From Pedobacter sp. JY14-1 (lineage in GTDB: Bacteria > Bacteroidota > Bacteroidia > Sphingobacteriales > Sphingobacteriaceae), in contig NZ_JARJHU010000009.1 in NCBI RefSeq assembly GCF_029269825.1, positions 62,601 through 126,600 of the forward strand: a stretch of DNA of 64,000 bases. Direction: 5' to 3'. Positions 36,797 to 42,771 of the stretch are shown piece after piece. A program made the position numbers and the translations under genes. A model generated the notes under the pieces. The model saw only the letters and a program-made list of their open reading frames with translations. It ran no database searches and was not told the DNA's origin. How positions within the stretch are numbered: the first letter of the stretch is position 1; each line of letters begins with the position of its first letter.

Positions 36797-39700
36797 TTAT
36801 TTAAAGTTTCTTCCTGAATGAAAGACATTTATACTGTTTAAAAGTCCGTTATAATTGAAGCATCTCTGGACGATGATATGGACGACATGTCCTTCGCGCT
36901 GCATTCTGCCTTCGGCCATGAGCAAACGGGACTGAAGGATTTCTTTCCGGTATTTCTCGAATAGTTCCTGAAAGACAACGAGATTACAGGAACCGCTCTC
37001 GTCTTCCAGCGTAATGAAGCAGATGCCCGAAGCAGTGCCGGGCCGCTGCCTGACCAGTATAAGACCTGCAACTTTTACCAGGCCTCCATCAGCGATATCT
37101 TTCAGCTGTGATGCTTTTGTAATCTGCAGCAGGATCAACTTTTCCCGTATGAAGCTAAGCGGGTGTGCCTTCAGGGACAAGGTCGTCGATGCATAATCCT
37201 GTATGACATGTTCTGCCAGTGTCATGAGCGGAAGTTCAACCTGTGTTTCAAAACTGCTTGCAGAAGGTTGTTCGCTGAAAATAGCGACCGGACGGTCACC
37301 CAGTGCAGCTACTTCCCACAAAGCTTGTCTCCGGTCCATGCCCAATGAACGGAATGTATCTGCGTCTGCCAGTTTTTCCAGGGCTTCCATGCAGACACCC
37401 GCATCCAGCAACTGATACATCTGAGTATAACCTTTCTTACGGCCCATAACAAGCGCCTGCATTTCTGCTTCATTTAACCCTTTTATTTGTCTGAAACCCA
37501 GCCTTACAGCGTGCTTAGCTGGCTGTGTTTCCTCCAGCTTGTTGTCCCAGCAGGATAGGTTAATATCTGCCTCCCGGACTTCGACCCCGTGGGCCCTGGC
37601 ATCAGCTACCAACTGAGCAGGCTGGTAGAAACCCATAGGCATACTGTTCAGTAGTGCTGCAAGAAAAATATCAGGGTAATAATGCTTTAACCAGCAGGAT
37701 ACATATACCAGCAGTGCAAAGCTGGCGGCATGGCTCTCCGGAAAACCATAACTGCCGAAGCCCTTCAGCTGATTGAAGACCCGTCGTGCAAAATCTTCCT
37801 CGTAGCCGTTTTTCAACATGCCCCCGATCAGCTTTCTCTCAAACTCTTCTACCTTACCTTTGGCTTTGAAAGTGGCCATACTTCGCCGCAGTTCATCGGC
37901 TTCAGCAGGTGCAAAACCTGCTGCATCAATGGCAATCTTCATGGCTTGTTCCTGGAACAAAGGCACACCTAAGGTTTTTTTAAGTATATCTTTGAGTTCC
38001 GGAGATGGATAATCAACGAGTTCCGGATTTTCACGACGCTTCAGATAGGGGTGCACCATATCTCCCTGTATCGGCCCTGGTCTGACAATGGCCACTTCAA
38101 TGACGAGGTCGTAGAATTCTCTTGGCTTCAAACGGGGAAGCATAGACATCTGAGCCCTGCTTTCGATTTGAAAGGTACCCATGGTATCGGCACGGCAGAT
38201 CATGTCGTATACAGGCTTACCTTCTTCCGTTTCTTCTTTTCCTAATATCCCGGCCATATTCAGGTCTAAGCCATAGTGGGCCCTGGCCAGGTCAAAGGCT
38301 TTCCGTACACAGGTAAGCATACCCAGTGCCAGCACATCGACCTTAAGAAAACCGAGTGCTTCGATATCGTCCTTATCCCATTCAATATTGGTTCGGTCTT
38401 CCATACGGGCATTCAGGATGGGGCAGAGATCGGTGATCCTACCCTGCGTGATGACAAAACCACCGGTATGCTGGCCGAGCTGTCTGGGAAAGCCAATCAT
38501 CTGCGCAGTCAGTTCCAGTACTTTATGCAAATGCGGATCTTCAGGGTTTAGTCCCTGTTCTTTCAGCCTTTTCCCGTCAAAAATATTATCGGAAAAATGC
38601 CATACGGCAGCAGAAATCTTATTGATGGTATCTACGGAAAGACCCATAGCTTTACCCACATCACGTATGGCACCTTTTTGCCGTTGCTGCGTCACTGTAG
38701 CGACAATAGCAGTGCGGTCACGGCCATATTTATTGTAGATATACTGGATCACTTCCTCACGCCGTTCATGTTCAAAATCAACATCTATATCCGGAGGTTC
38801 ATTGCGTGCCGAGGAAATGAAGCGTTCAAACAGCAGGTCGATTTTCTTTGGGTTTACGGAAGTGATTCCCAGGCAAAAACATACTACAGAATTTGCCGCT
38901 GAACCCCGGCCCTGACAAAGTATTTTTTGAGAACGGGCAAACCGGACGAGGTCATGAACGGTCAGAAAATAAGAGGCGTAGTTCTTTTCGCGGATAAATT
39001 TCAGTTCATGCGCTATGGTTTCTTTGATTTTCTCTGTGATTTCAGTACCAAATTTCTCACAGGCACCCAACCAGGTTAAATGGATCAGTTCTTCCATTGG
39101 ACTGCGGCCCTCCGAAGTAAGCTCCTCAGGATAAATGTATTTAAGTGAATCTAGGCTGAACTGGCATCGGTCTGCGATCTTAATGGTATTTTCTATAGCA
39201 TCCGGTAACAGGTAGAACAGCCGCTGCATTTCGGAAACAGACTTTAAATGGCGTTCTGCATTCTGATGCAACAGGTAACCTGCATCATAGATCGTACATT
39301 TTTCGCGTACGCAGGTAAGTATATCCTGAAGCTCACGACGTTTAGGTTCATGATAAACGACATCATTTACTGCTGCTATTGGAATGTCTAATTCTTCGGA
39401 TAACCTCGAAATACGGAACATTCTCTTCTGGTCGTAACCCAGGTAATTGCGTGAACCGGCAAGATACAGGTTGTTTCCGAAGGCGCTTTTATAATCGGCA
39501 AGTGCTTCCCTGATGTCCGGATCGAAATCAAAACGGTTGTTCAATACGGCCGGAAGAAGTGCGATAAAGACTATGCCTTCTTTATGAAGAAAGACATCGT
39601 TCCTGTACAAAAGGCATTGTCCTTTCTCTGTACGCAGATTTCCTATGCTCAGGAGTTTTGACAGGCGCGAATATGCAGATTGATCGGTAGGATAAGCCAG

Positions 39701-39925
39701 TAGAGGAGGGGCATCCTGCAACTCCAGCCTGCAACCTGGAATAAATTTTATATGGTGTTTTTTAGCAGCTACATGGGCACGCACAATGCCCGCGAGCGTA
39801 TTTACGTCTGTAATGGCGATACCCTTATAACCAAGCTTAGCAGCCTGTATAACCAATTCTTCAGGGCCTGAGGCTCCTCTGAGAAAGCTGAAATTGCTTG
39901 TAACCTGTAATTCGGCGTAACTCAT
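36797..39925 (-). CDS. dnaE2: Error-prone DNA polymerase III alpha subunit (DnaE2/ImuC)
   Basis: About 1042 residues from the ATG at 39923-39925 (MSYAELQVTSNFSFLRGASGPEELV), the standard DnaE2 start with its PHP domain. The polymerase active site is seen in PPDIDVDFEHERREEVIQYIYNKYG. LGFLKVDVLALGMLT, FQEQAMKIA and a C-terminal OB-fold region (VAGLILVRQRPGTASGICFITLED) are typical. It performs translesion synthesis under damage, with ImuB as the hub. It is 5 bases downstream of imuB in a three-gene operon. Confidence 0.96.
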   Translation of the reverse strand: MSYAELQVTSNFSFLRGASGPEELVIQAAKLGYKGIAITDVNTLAGIVRAHVAAKKHHIKFIPGCRLELQDAPPLLAYPTDQSAYSRLSKLLSIGNLRTEKGQCLLYRNDVFLHKEGIVFIALLPAVLNNRFDFDPDIREALADYKSAFGNNLYLAGSRNYLGYDQKRMFRISRLSEELDIPIAAVNDVVYHEPKRRELQDILTCVREKCTIYDAGYLLHQNAERHLKSVSEMQRLFYLLPDAIENTIKIADRCQFSLDSLKYIYPEELTSEGRSPMEELIHLTWLGACEKFGTEITEKIKETIAHELKFIREKNYASYFLTVHDLVRFARSQKILCQGRGSAANSVVCFCLGITSVNPKKIDLLFERFISSARNEPPDIDVDFEHERREEVIQYIYNKYGRDRTAIVATVTQQRQKGAIRDVGKAMGLSVDTINKISAAVWHFSDNIFDGKRLKEQGLNPEDPHLHKVLELTAQMIGFPRQLGQHTGGFVITQGRITDLCPILNARMEDRTNIEWDKDDIEALGFLKVDVLALGMLTCVRKAFDLARAHYGLDLNMAGILGKEETEEGKPVYDMICRADTMGTFQIESRAQMSMLPRLKPREFYDLVIEVAIVRPGPIQGDMVHPYLKRRENPELVDYPSPELKDILKKTLGVPLFQEQAMKIAIDAAGFAPAEADELRRSMATFKAKGKVEEFERKLIGGMLKNGYEEDFARRVFNQLKGFGSYGFPESHAASFALLVYVSCWLKHYYPDIFLAALLNSMPMGFYQPAQLVADARAHGVEVREADINLSCWDNKLEETQPAKHAVRLGFRQIKGLNEAEMQALVMGRKKGYTQMYQLLDAGVCMEALEKLADADTFRSLGMDRRQALWEVAALGDRPVAIFSEQPSASSFETQVELPLMTLAEHVIQDYASTTLSLKAHPLSFIREKLILLQITKASQLKDIADGGLVKVAGLILVRQRPGTASGICFITLEDESGSCNLVVFQELFEKYRKEILQSRLLMAEGRMQREGHVVHIIVQRCFNYNGLLNSINVFHSGRNFK

Positions 39926-39930
39926 ATTGT

Positions 39931-41430
39931 TCAGGCAAACAGACCATGAATAAACCACTGAGAACCCTCTTCATCATAATGGCCCGACCGGAAAAGCCAG
40001 TAGCGGTGTCCCTGATGATCTTCAACAGTGTAATAATCTCGGTGTTCTCCGTCCTCGAGCCACCATTCTCTTTCTATACGTTCGGGTCCGTCTGCTTTAA
40101 CAACAGGATGCAACTTATTCTTATACCTGAAATTCATAGGCGGATAGTCGGGGATGGGTGCACTTACCTCTATTGGTTCTGGTTTCGCAAATATCCTTAC
40201 TGGTCTTGATTTATCTGTTCTCCAGGTAGTATTGCAGGATTCTTCCAGTTCTTCTGCAGTTCTGACAGAACGCTCCGGCCAGTAATGTTCCTGGGGAAGA
40301 TAGCGCCTGATGCTGATGGTACTGGTCTTTCCTGTAAGTCTGTCCAGTAGTTCGGCGAGTCCCTCGTCCTGAAGCTCGGCTTTGAGGTTCCATAACTTTT
40401 CCTGGGCCAGCCGGACGGGTTCCGTCTTATTTGCTTCCATACTGAACAGTTCAATGCCCAGTCCGGGGTCAATGGTGGGGATCTTCAGCGAAAACAACCT
40501 GAACAGGTGTGCTTCACTGGAGGAACTACGACTGGTACCAATGGTAACTGATAGTTTTTTCCCATCTATCCGGTAACAGGTCAGCGTTGCAGACCTGACG
40601 CCAAGCCCTTCTGTTCTGAGCCTGCTGCAGATCATTTTCAATAATTGACTTATGGCAATTTCAATTGCTGTGCCGGTAATTAAGGGTTCTATGCAGGGCA
40701 ATCGCTCCTCATAAGGAGGTACCGGGATTATTGAATGTAAAGGCTCGTCTTCTGTACCCAGGGCCTGCCTGATCCTTGTCAGCAGGTGAGGCCCGAACCT
40801 TCTTCTCAATACCCGGGGAGGAATCTGTATGAACTGGCCGATTTGCCGTAATCCAAGTTTATTTAAACGTTGTGCAGTGTCTGGTTCCAGCCTTAGGGCT
40901 TCAGGCGGCAGTGACAAAAGATGCTCCAGTTGGGTATGCGCTGTGAGTATTGCTGCGTTGTCTGTGTAATGTACTATTGCCCATGCTGCTCCGATTGTAC
41001 CGGCAATTGCACCGCGGCAATGGTATCCCATACTGCGTATCTTTTCCAGAATGATGCGTAGATAGTTTTCTTCTCCACCCCACAAATGACTGCAACCGTC
41101 ACTGTTCAGTATGAGGCCGTCCGTGCCGTCTGTCGCTACAACCGGGCTGAAACGGACAAACCATTCGGCAAGTTTTTCGAGCAGTTTTGAAAATCGTCCG
41201 GGATGATCGTCAAAAGAAAGTATGTCAGGTACTATCGTCCTGGCATCCGCAAGCACCATGCCTGTACGGATGGCCTGGGCCCTCGCAGCAGGACTGACTG
41301 CACTAATGACCATACGGCCATGCTGTTTTATGGTAAGCACAAAGCAGGCGTCTTTCAACTCTGGCCTTCTTCTGATCAGCCAGTCTGTTTTTAATTCAGG
41401 AAACCATATGTAAACAAATCTTGCCGGCAT
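39931..41430 (-). CDS. imuB: ImuB-like Y-family polymerase-related protein
   Basis: About 499 residues from the ATG at 41428-41430 (MPARFVYIWFPELKTDW); the longer frame would overlap imuA. The Y-family fold is recognisable, but the catalytic acids are missing: the first metal motif reads YIWFPEL, and the second region reads VATDGTDGLILNSDGC instead of a serine-x-Asp-Glu. This matches ImuB, a catalytically dead hub that recruits DnaE2 and the sliding clamp. One base separates it from the imuA stop. Confidence 0.93.
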   Translation of the reverse strand: MPARFVYIWFPELKTDWLIRRRPELKDACFVLTIKQHGRMVISAVSPAARAQAIRTGMVLADARTIVPDILSFDDHPGRFSKLLEKLAEWFVRFSPVVATDGTDGLILNSDGCSHLWGGEENYLRIILEKIRSMGYHCRGAIAGTIGAAWAIVHYTDNAAILTAHTQLEHLLSLPPEALRLEPDTAQRLNKLGLRQIGQFIQIPPRVLRRRFGPHLLTRIRQALGTEDEPLHSIIPVPPYEERLPCIEPLITGTAIEIAISQLLKMICSRLRTEGLGVRSATLTCYRIDGKKLSVTIGTSRSSSSEAHLFRLFSLKIPTIDPGLGIELFSMEANKTEPVRLAQEKLWNLKAELQDEGLAELLDRLTGKTSTISIRRYLPQEHYWPERSVRTAEELEESCNTTWRTDKSRPVRIFAKPEPIEVSAPIPDYPPMNFRYKNKLHPVVKADGPERIEREWWLEDGEHRDYYTVEDHQGHRYWLFRSGHYDEEGSQWFIHGLFA

Positions 41431-41431
41431 T

Positions 41432-42166
41432 TTACCCCACCTCCTGACGTTGAAATACAAAATTGTGATGCGGTTGTGGCAGGTCAAGGAAGTGACCTCC
41501 ATTCCACACGATCCTGAAAATGCCCGGGCGGCCGTTGCGTACCTTTAATAACTTTACCTGCCAGCTGGGGAAACCTACGCCAGGCAGGCCATCTTCTGTA
41601 TAACTAGGCAGATGACTGACCTGCCAGCGGGCAGCACAGGCAGTATTACCGGCATTTTTTGGTGTATTTCTCAGGATTATCCCTGTTACGTTGCTTTTCT
41701 CGGCTGCAAGCTGCAGTCTTCTTGACTGGTTGAAGCTGATCTCAGGTAATTCTGCAATCACTGCGGACAGCGCGCTGCACTTCAGTGCTTCCTCCATTGC
41801 CCATATAATTTCATTCTCATAGATGGAGTGAACGAAAATAATGCGTTCAGGATCAACATTAAAGCTGCCTATACCTAAAGGAAAAACAATCGCTGAACGG
41901 CTGATCCAAAGACAAGCATTTCCTTTCATTATCCTTGAAAGAAGCCCGGCAATGAAGCCGGCGGCGGCGGCTGTTTCTTCAACAGTACCACAAATGAATT
42001 CATGGAGGTGTCCACATGGGAAACAACCGCCTGGAAAGGCTGCTTCTATTGTTCCCAGCCCAAGACTGTCAGGTTCTGCCGACGAAGGTCGCCCCATTCC
42101 CTGCAAAACCAGGATTTGTTGTTGTAACTGCTGAATGATCGCTTTCCTGTTTACTTCCATAATCAT
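41432..42166 (-). CDS. imuA: ImuA-like protein, RecA-related
   Basis: A 244-residue protein starting at 42166 or, two codons later, at 42160. The opening KAIIQQLQQQILVLQG and LGTIEAAFPGGCFPCGHLHEFI follow the ImuA (RecA-like) pattern. The Walker A loop is degenerate (no GKT), and IAELPEISFNQSRRLQLAAEKSNVTGIILR is the RecA-like core. It is first in the imuA-imuB-dnaE2 cassette used for damage-induced mutagenesis. A perfect dyad surrounds its -7 element. Confidence 0.9.
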   Translation of the reverse strand: MIMEVNRKAIIQQLQQQILVLQGMGRPSSAEPDSLGLGTIEAAFPGGCFPCGHLHEFICGTVEETAAAAGFIAGLLSRIMKGNACLWISRSAIVFPLGIGSFNVDPERIIFVHSIYENEIIWAMEEALKCSALSAVIAELPEISFNQSRRLQLAAEKSNVTGIILRNTPKNAGNTACAARWQVSHLPSYTEDGLPGVGFPSWQVKLLKVRNGRPGIFRIVWNGGHFLDLPQPHHNFVFQRQEVG

Positions 42167-42199
42167 AGACTGAACTGGAAATTATATTTATATCTAAAG

Positions 42200-42224
42200 T
42201 TATTAGCAAATATAATACTAATAA
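42200..42224 (-). promoter_or_regulatory. Promoter with embedded operator dyad, imuA-imuB-dnaE2
   Basis: Perfect inverted repeat TTATTAG ... CTAATAA with an 11-base spacer. Read on the minus strand the spacer contains TATATTTG (42207-42214), an exact TAnnTTTG -7 element, so a bound protein would block RNA polymerase. The ATG of imuA lies about 40 bases downstream. A LexA-like or S24-peptidase repressor is the expected type, by analogy with SOS-controlled imu cassettes. Confidence 0.7.
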
Positions 42225-42339: not shown

Positions 42340-42771
42340 ATGCAAAACTACAATAACCACAGGCGTTATTATATACCGCACCATTTTGTGTTTTATCCTG
42401 TTATTCTTGCAGGAACAATATATTCAGTCTTTCGGGCACTTCATCATGCTGAAAATTCACCGGTATGGTATTGCCTTGCTTTTATATTCCTCTTATTTGG
42501 CTGGTTGTCTTTTATGTTGCGTCAGCATTACGCACTTACATTGCAGAACCGGCTGGTAGTTACGGAAATGCGTTACCGCTATTACGTGCTTACCGGCCAA
42601 AGGCTGGAACTGCTTGAGGACCAGTTAACTTTCGGACAGATTGCAGCGCTCCGGTTTGCTCCTGATGACGAACTCCCCGTACTGGTACAACGGGTGTTGA
42701 AAGAAGACCTTTCTCCAGATCAGATTAAGAAGCATATTAAAAACTGGCTTCCTGATCATAAACGGGTATGA
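42340..42771 (+). CDS. DUF6526-like small membrane protein
   Basis: A 143-residue protein with two membrane helices (about 15-31 and 42-58) and a cytoplasmic C-terminal domain (NRLVVTEMRYRYYVLTGQRLELLEDQLTFGQIAALRFAPDDELPVLVQRVLKEDLSPDQIKKHIKNW). This looks like the DUF6526 family common in Bacteroidota, function unknown. It ends 9 bases from the convergent lyase-like gene. Confidence 0.8.
   Translation: MQNYNNHRRYYIPHHFVFYPVILAGTIYSVFRALHHAENSPVWYCLAFIFLLFGWLSFMLRQHYALTLQNRLVVTEMRYRYYVLTGQRLELLEDQLTFGQIAALRFAPDDELPVLVQRVLKEDLSPDQIKKHIKNWLPDHKRV

Follow-up and report, generated by a model that had tools for sequence, protein, structure and literature searches.

Two CTAA-N5-TTAG boxes, a predicted pair of SOS operators, flank the -7 element of the imuA-imuB-dnaE2 promoter in a Pedobacter genome

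The -7 element of the imuA-imuB-dnaE2 promoter in Pedobacter sp. JY14-1 lies between two exact copies of the palindrome CTAA-N5-TTAG. We consider it highly probable that each palindrome is one SOS operator and that the two serve the non-canonical LexA of the genome. An earlier note on this DNA had described the site as a single dyad, TTATTAG-N11-CTAATAA, and had proposed the dyad as the SOS box of the lineage. The note was, very probably, right on SOS control, and wrong on the operator letters, because the dyad consists of the facing inner halves of two operators of a published type. Throughout, the window refers to the whole 64,000-nucleotide stretch of DNA that was analysed.

Layout of the imuA promoter

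The features of the cassette and its promoter are as follows (window coordinates).

36797..39958, minus strand: dnaE2, error-prone DNA polymerase (NCBIfam NF004225, 1365 bits, above cut-off)
39931..41502, minus strand: imuB, Y-family polymerase-like (Pfam IMS, E 3.4e-12)
41432..42166, minus strand: imuA, 244 aa, first gene of the cassette (NCBIfam ImuA, E 1.9e-17, below the model cut-off)
42194..42206, minus strand: box A, CTAA-AGTTA-TTAG, second predicted SOS operator (exact CTAA-N5-TTAG; abutting layout as at the recA promoter)
42202..42202, minus strand: predicted transcription start (from the TAnnTTTG position in F. psychrophilum, PMC9723704)
42207..42214, minus strand: TATATTTG, -7 promoter element of imuA (from sequence; consensus TAnnTTTG from PMC9723704)
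42218..42230, minus strand: box B, CTAA-TAATT-TTAG, predicted SOS operator in the conserved position (exact CTAA-N5-TTAG; -7 element at +16)
42200..42224, no strand: the dyad reported earlier, made of the halves of boxes A and B that face each other, and no unit by itself

The letters and position of the reported dyad hold: TTATTAGCAAATATAATACTAATAA occupies exactly 42200-42224, matches TTATTAG-N11-CTAATAA and encloses the complement of TATATTTG, about 40 bp ahead of the imuA ATG (42166). Its boundaries do not. When the flanks are read 6 bp outward from the dyad, two CTAA-N5-TTAG palindromes emerge, 24 bp apart, and it is these that recur. The N11 of the dyad is the gap separating an arm of box A from an arm of box B, and the outer halves of both boxes fall beyond the dyad. 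Box B stands just upstream of the -7 element, while box A begins directly after it and overlies the predicted transcription start. The start is placed at 42202 because TAnnTTTG occupies positions -12 to -5 in F. psychrophilum (PMC9723704). No obvious -33 element was found at the imuA promoter. The true start of imuB is probably internal, near 41430.

Could TTATTAG-N11-CTAATAA nevertheless be one operator, bound by a single repressor spanning the -7 element? The dyad is perfectly symmetrical about that element, and its pattern had no occurrence in dinucleotide-preserving shuffles of the window. Against this, the pattern has a single copy in the whole 4,084,524-base genome; among 88 family imuA promoters it is found once, at the window's own, and is missing from the other 87. 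Every letter of it is accounted for by the inner halves of two boxes, each of which recurs at SOS genes, and a validated relative is intolerant of altered spacers (PMC8565304). We therefore regard a single operator as scarcely credible, and the strict dyad was rejected as a genome-wide motif. The earlier suggestion that TTATTAG-N9-13-CTAATAA would recur before other repair or S24 genes fails likewise: the genome contains no second copy.

A DUF6526 gene (42340-42771, plus strand) is divergent from imuA, and both boxes lie 110-146 bp ahead of its start. No TAnnTTTG adjoins the two boxes in the direction of this gene, and its co-regulation with imuA is only possible.

Recurrence of the box and its candidate regulator

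CTAA-N5-TTAG occurs at 27 sites in the 4.08-Mb genome, which we examined as individual loci. Thirteen of these precede eight damage-response genes, for which the chance expectation is about 0.01 sites (our own arithmetic, from genome density and windows of ~250 bp before the eight genes). Two boxes each stand before imuA, recA, dinB, the gene of an HTH+S24 repressor and a PA0069/splB-like radical SAM gene; one each stands before umuD, an alkB-like oxygenase gene and a DnaQ/GIY-YIG exonuclease gene. The remaining sites lie within ORFs or ahead of genes of doubtful relevance (2'-5' RNA ligase-like, COX15). While a search with TTATTAG-N11-CTAATAA yields nothing further, one with CTAA-N5-TTAG thus brings together a coherent SOS regulon.

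One of these remaining sites is a perfect box (L026:3401-3413) 53 bp before the 2'-5' RNA ligase/LigT-like gene. This is no known SOS gene; we list it as a candidate addition to the regulon.

Two other promoters of the same genome resemble that of imuA. At recA, a box likewise follows directly after the -7 element (TATATTTG|CTAACACAATTAG), and at the splB-like gene two boxes, 22 bp apart, flank the likely promoter.

The earlier note had expected the regulator to be an S24/HTH protein distinct from the LexA of Proteobacteria or Firmicutes, and the gene content agrees. The canonical LexA DNA-binding domain (PF01726) has no match in the genome, with positive controls, and canonical LexA was rejected as the regulator. 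Three S24 matches lie above the Pfam cut-off: (i) a UmuD-like protein without HTH, (ii) a 258-aa protein with HTH_3 and Peptidase_S24 domains (C1:459270-460043), and (iii) a match at C5:282400. The 258-aa protein contains an A106-G107 bond, S145 and K184; relatives of it are present in 58 of 61 family genomes, and all 30 of the repressor-gene promoters examined in the family carry a box. Solved structures offered no near full-length match to it, only short matches to the HTH domain. Judged by sequence, the 258-aa protein is likely to be the genome's non-canonical LexA, and to be autoregulated.

The boxes might instead serve a different regulator that recognises these half-sites, either another HTH+S24 protein or a repressor of phage type. 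Paralogues and motif switching are reported for the group in PMC8565304, and the third S24 match could supply such a protein. Yet the 258-aa repressor is the only relative in the genome at E 1e-15, and a box stands in its own promoter both here and throughout the 30 genomes, which makes another regulator very unlikely.

With the 258-aa protein as repressor, the promoter might work as follows. In the undamaged cell, RNA polymerase would be held off the -7 element by repressor dimers sitting on one box or on both. Upon damage, the repressor, prompted by RecA filaments, would cleave itself at Ala106-Gly107 through its Ser145/Lys184 dyad; with the boxes vacated, imuA-imuB-dnaE2 would be transcribed, and error-prone lesion bypass would follow. 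Repressor binding, cleavage and damage induction at imuA are extrapolated here from published relatives. We hold it very likely that a non-canonical LexA places the imu operon under SOS control.

Conservation and exchange of the box among relatives

The position of the box at imuA is conserved, which, together with its recurrence at SOS genes, bears out the earlier claim of operator DNA under SOS-type control at this promoter. Among 88 family imuA genes, with starts placed from match coordinates, 74 have a box within 300 bp (62 with one box, 12 with two). When all 256 possible 4-N5-4 palindromes were scored within 150 bp of these genes, CTAA was found at 72 of the 88 and the next best at eight. 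Among 80 named imuA loci, drawn from several families (Mucilaginibacter, Pedobacter, Sphingobacterium, Olivibacter, Chitinophaga, Segetibacter, Dyadobacter and others), 70 carry a box. Pooling and deduplication gave 154 promoters, and in 125 of them a box lies no more than 120 bp from the ATG. The distance from box to promoter is nearly fixed: an exact TAnnTTTG begins at +16 from the box start in 78 of these 125 unique promoters, and at +15 in 11. This geometry can help to tell true boxes.

At all three Dyadobacter loci (L230, L233, L240), CTAA-N5-TTAG is missing ahead of imuA. Other inverted repeats, such as attgttacttttgagatcaataaattgttac... in L240, are seen at these loci and may represent another operator type.

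Since TATATTTG lies at its +16, box B is the conserved operator as judged from the letters, with box A an apparently uncommon addition. It might be argued that box B alone is functional and that box A is a chance match, or a decaying copy without a role; only box B holds the conserved place, most relatives manage with one box, and the 24-bp spacing was seen in no other sampled imuA promoter. On the other hand, box A matches perfectly and has the placement of the recA box in the same genome, and the splB-like promoter is also flanked by two boxes. Moreover, second boxes downstream exceed the shuffles among the pooled promoters, with five exact (0.14 expected) and 16 when one mismatch is allowed (2.9 expected); some of those spaced at 21-23 bp come from Chitinophaga-type promoters. 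On balance, we think it unlikely that box A has no role.

The role of box A is suggested by the recA promoter of the same genome and by promoters of Chitinophaga type, a few of which show a comparable sandwich. Tentatively, and with rather less than even confidence, we propose that two repressor dimers enclose the -7 element like a clamp, one on the ancestral upstream box and the other on a box placed over the start site in the manner of recA. If so, the imu operon would be tighter and later-opening here than under the one-box promoters of most relatives, and the 21-23 bp clamps of the few Chitinophaga-type promoters would make this a recurrent solution.

Two further observations concern the distribution of the box. 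Firstly, in five Mucilaginibacter loci (L186, L188, L199, L217, L254) a gene of ~120 aa (MEEFYIDVELSRGLTRIQVDEVP...) lies ~10-400 bp ahead of imuA on the same strand, and the box stands before this gene rather than before imuA. The gene may be a new member of the SOS operon. Secondly, of 30 family genomes (L150-L179), only 10, this one among them, have a box at recA, as against 30 of 30 for the repressor promoter; recA control through CTAA-N5-TTAG looks patchy in the family.

The box is missing at 14 of the 88 family imuA promoters. Many exceptions in fact support the rule: a missing box goes with a change in either the start of the operon or its repressor. Seven of the 14 carry TTGTYAY-N5-RTRACAA instead, two of them as variants (L290-L296, in genomes G112, G107, G090, G063, G073, G150 and G145). 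Across the palindrome from imuA, each of the seven has a diverged HTH+S24 gene in divergent orientation; its product has roughly 32-40% identity to the genome-wide repressors, with the same cleavage and catalytic residues. Among 110 imuA loci with flanks, such a divergent HTH+S24 neighbour was found in only one, P. borealis, which is among the seven. Three of the genomes (G063, G073 and G145) have another imuA with a normal box. We read these seven operons, from their sequences, as swaps to a private divergent S24 repressor and a different palindrome.

As a second genome-wide SOS motif, TTGTYAY-N5-RTRACAA was rejected: most of 151 genomes have 0-2 matches to it, and the reversed control behaves alike. 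The palindrome seems particular to operons that have a diverged repressor nearby. If imu operons have naturally swapped repressor and operator, the determinants of specificity would become open to testing, and we rate this finding of greater interest than the window's own site.

Comparison with known systems

The imuA site is an instance of a published system. CTAA-N5-TTAG was reported in 2021 as the operator of a non-canonical LexA (HTH+S24) of Bacteroidetes (Sanchez-Osuna 2021, PMC8565304), such that the SOS box of Bacteroidota, which the earlier note thought the dyad might show, was already known. In that report, EMSA with the P. actiniarum protein demonstrates that both half-sites and the exact spacer are required, with spacer changes abolishing binding; damage induction of targets was measured, and imuA-imuB-dnaE2 is already among the targets listed.

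The two systems are alike in half-sites, N5 spacer, kind of repressor (HTH+S24) and autoregulation. Common targets, according to that report, are recA, dinB, umuD, splB, the DnaQ/GIY-YIG exonuclease gene and imuA-imuB-dnaE2, and more than one box per promoter is described there too. What differs here is the arrangement of two boxes flanking the -7 element at a spacing of 24 bp. The fixed distance from box to -7 element at imuA was measured in the present work, and was not found in the portions of PMC8565304 available to us.

The swaps in relatives have a parallel in Elizabethkingia anophelis, whose TTAC-N5-GTAA operator (PMC8565304, Fig. 8) displays the same dyad-N5-dyad layout as the TTGTYAY-N5-RTRACAA palindromes, which have a repressor gene beside an error-prone polymerase gene. 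E. anophelis belongs to another family than Sphingobacteriaceae, its half-site is different, and its operator is not the window's site. A more distant comparison is the LexA box of E. coli, CTGT-N8-ACAG. There, too, promoters are covered by an S24 repressor until it cleaves itself under stimulation by RecA. The DNA-binding domain and the motif differ, and canonical LexA is absent here.
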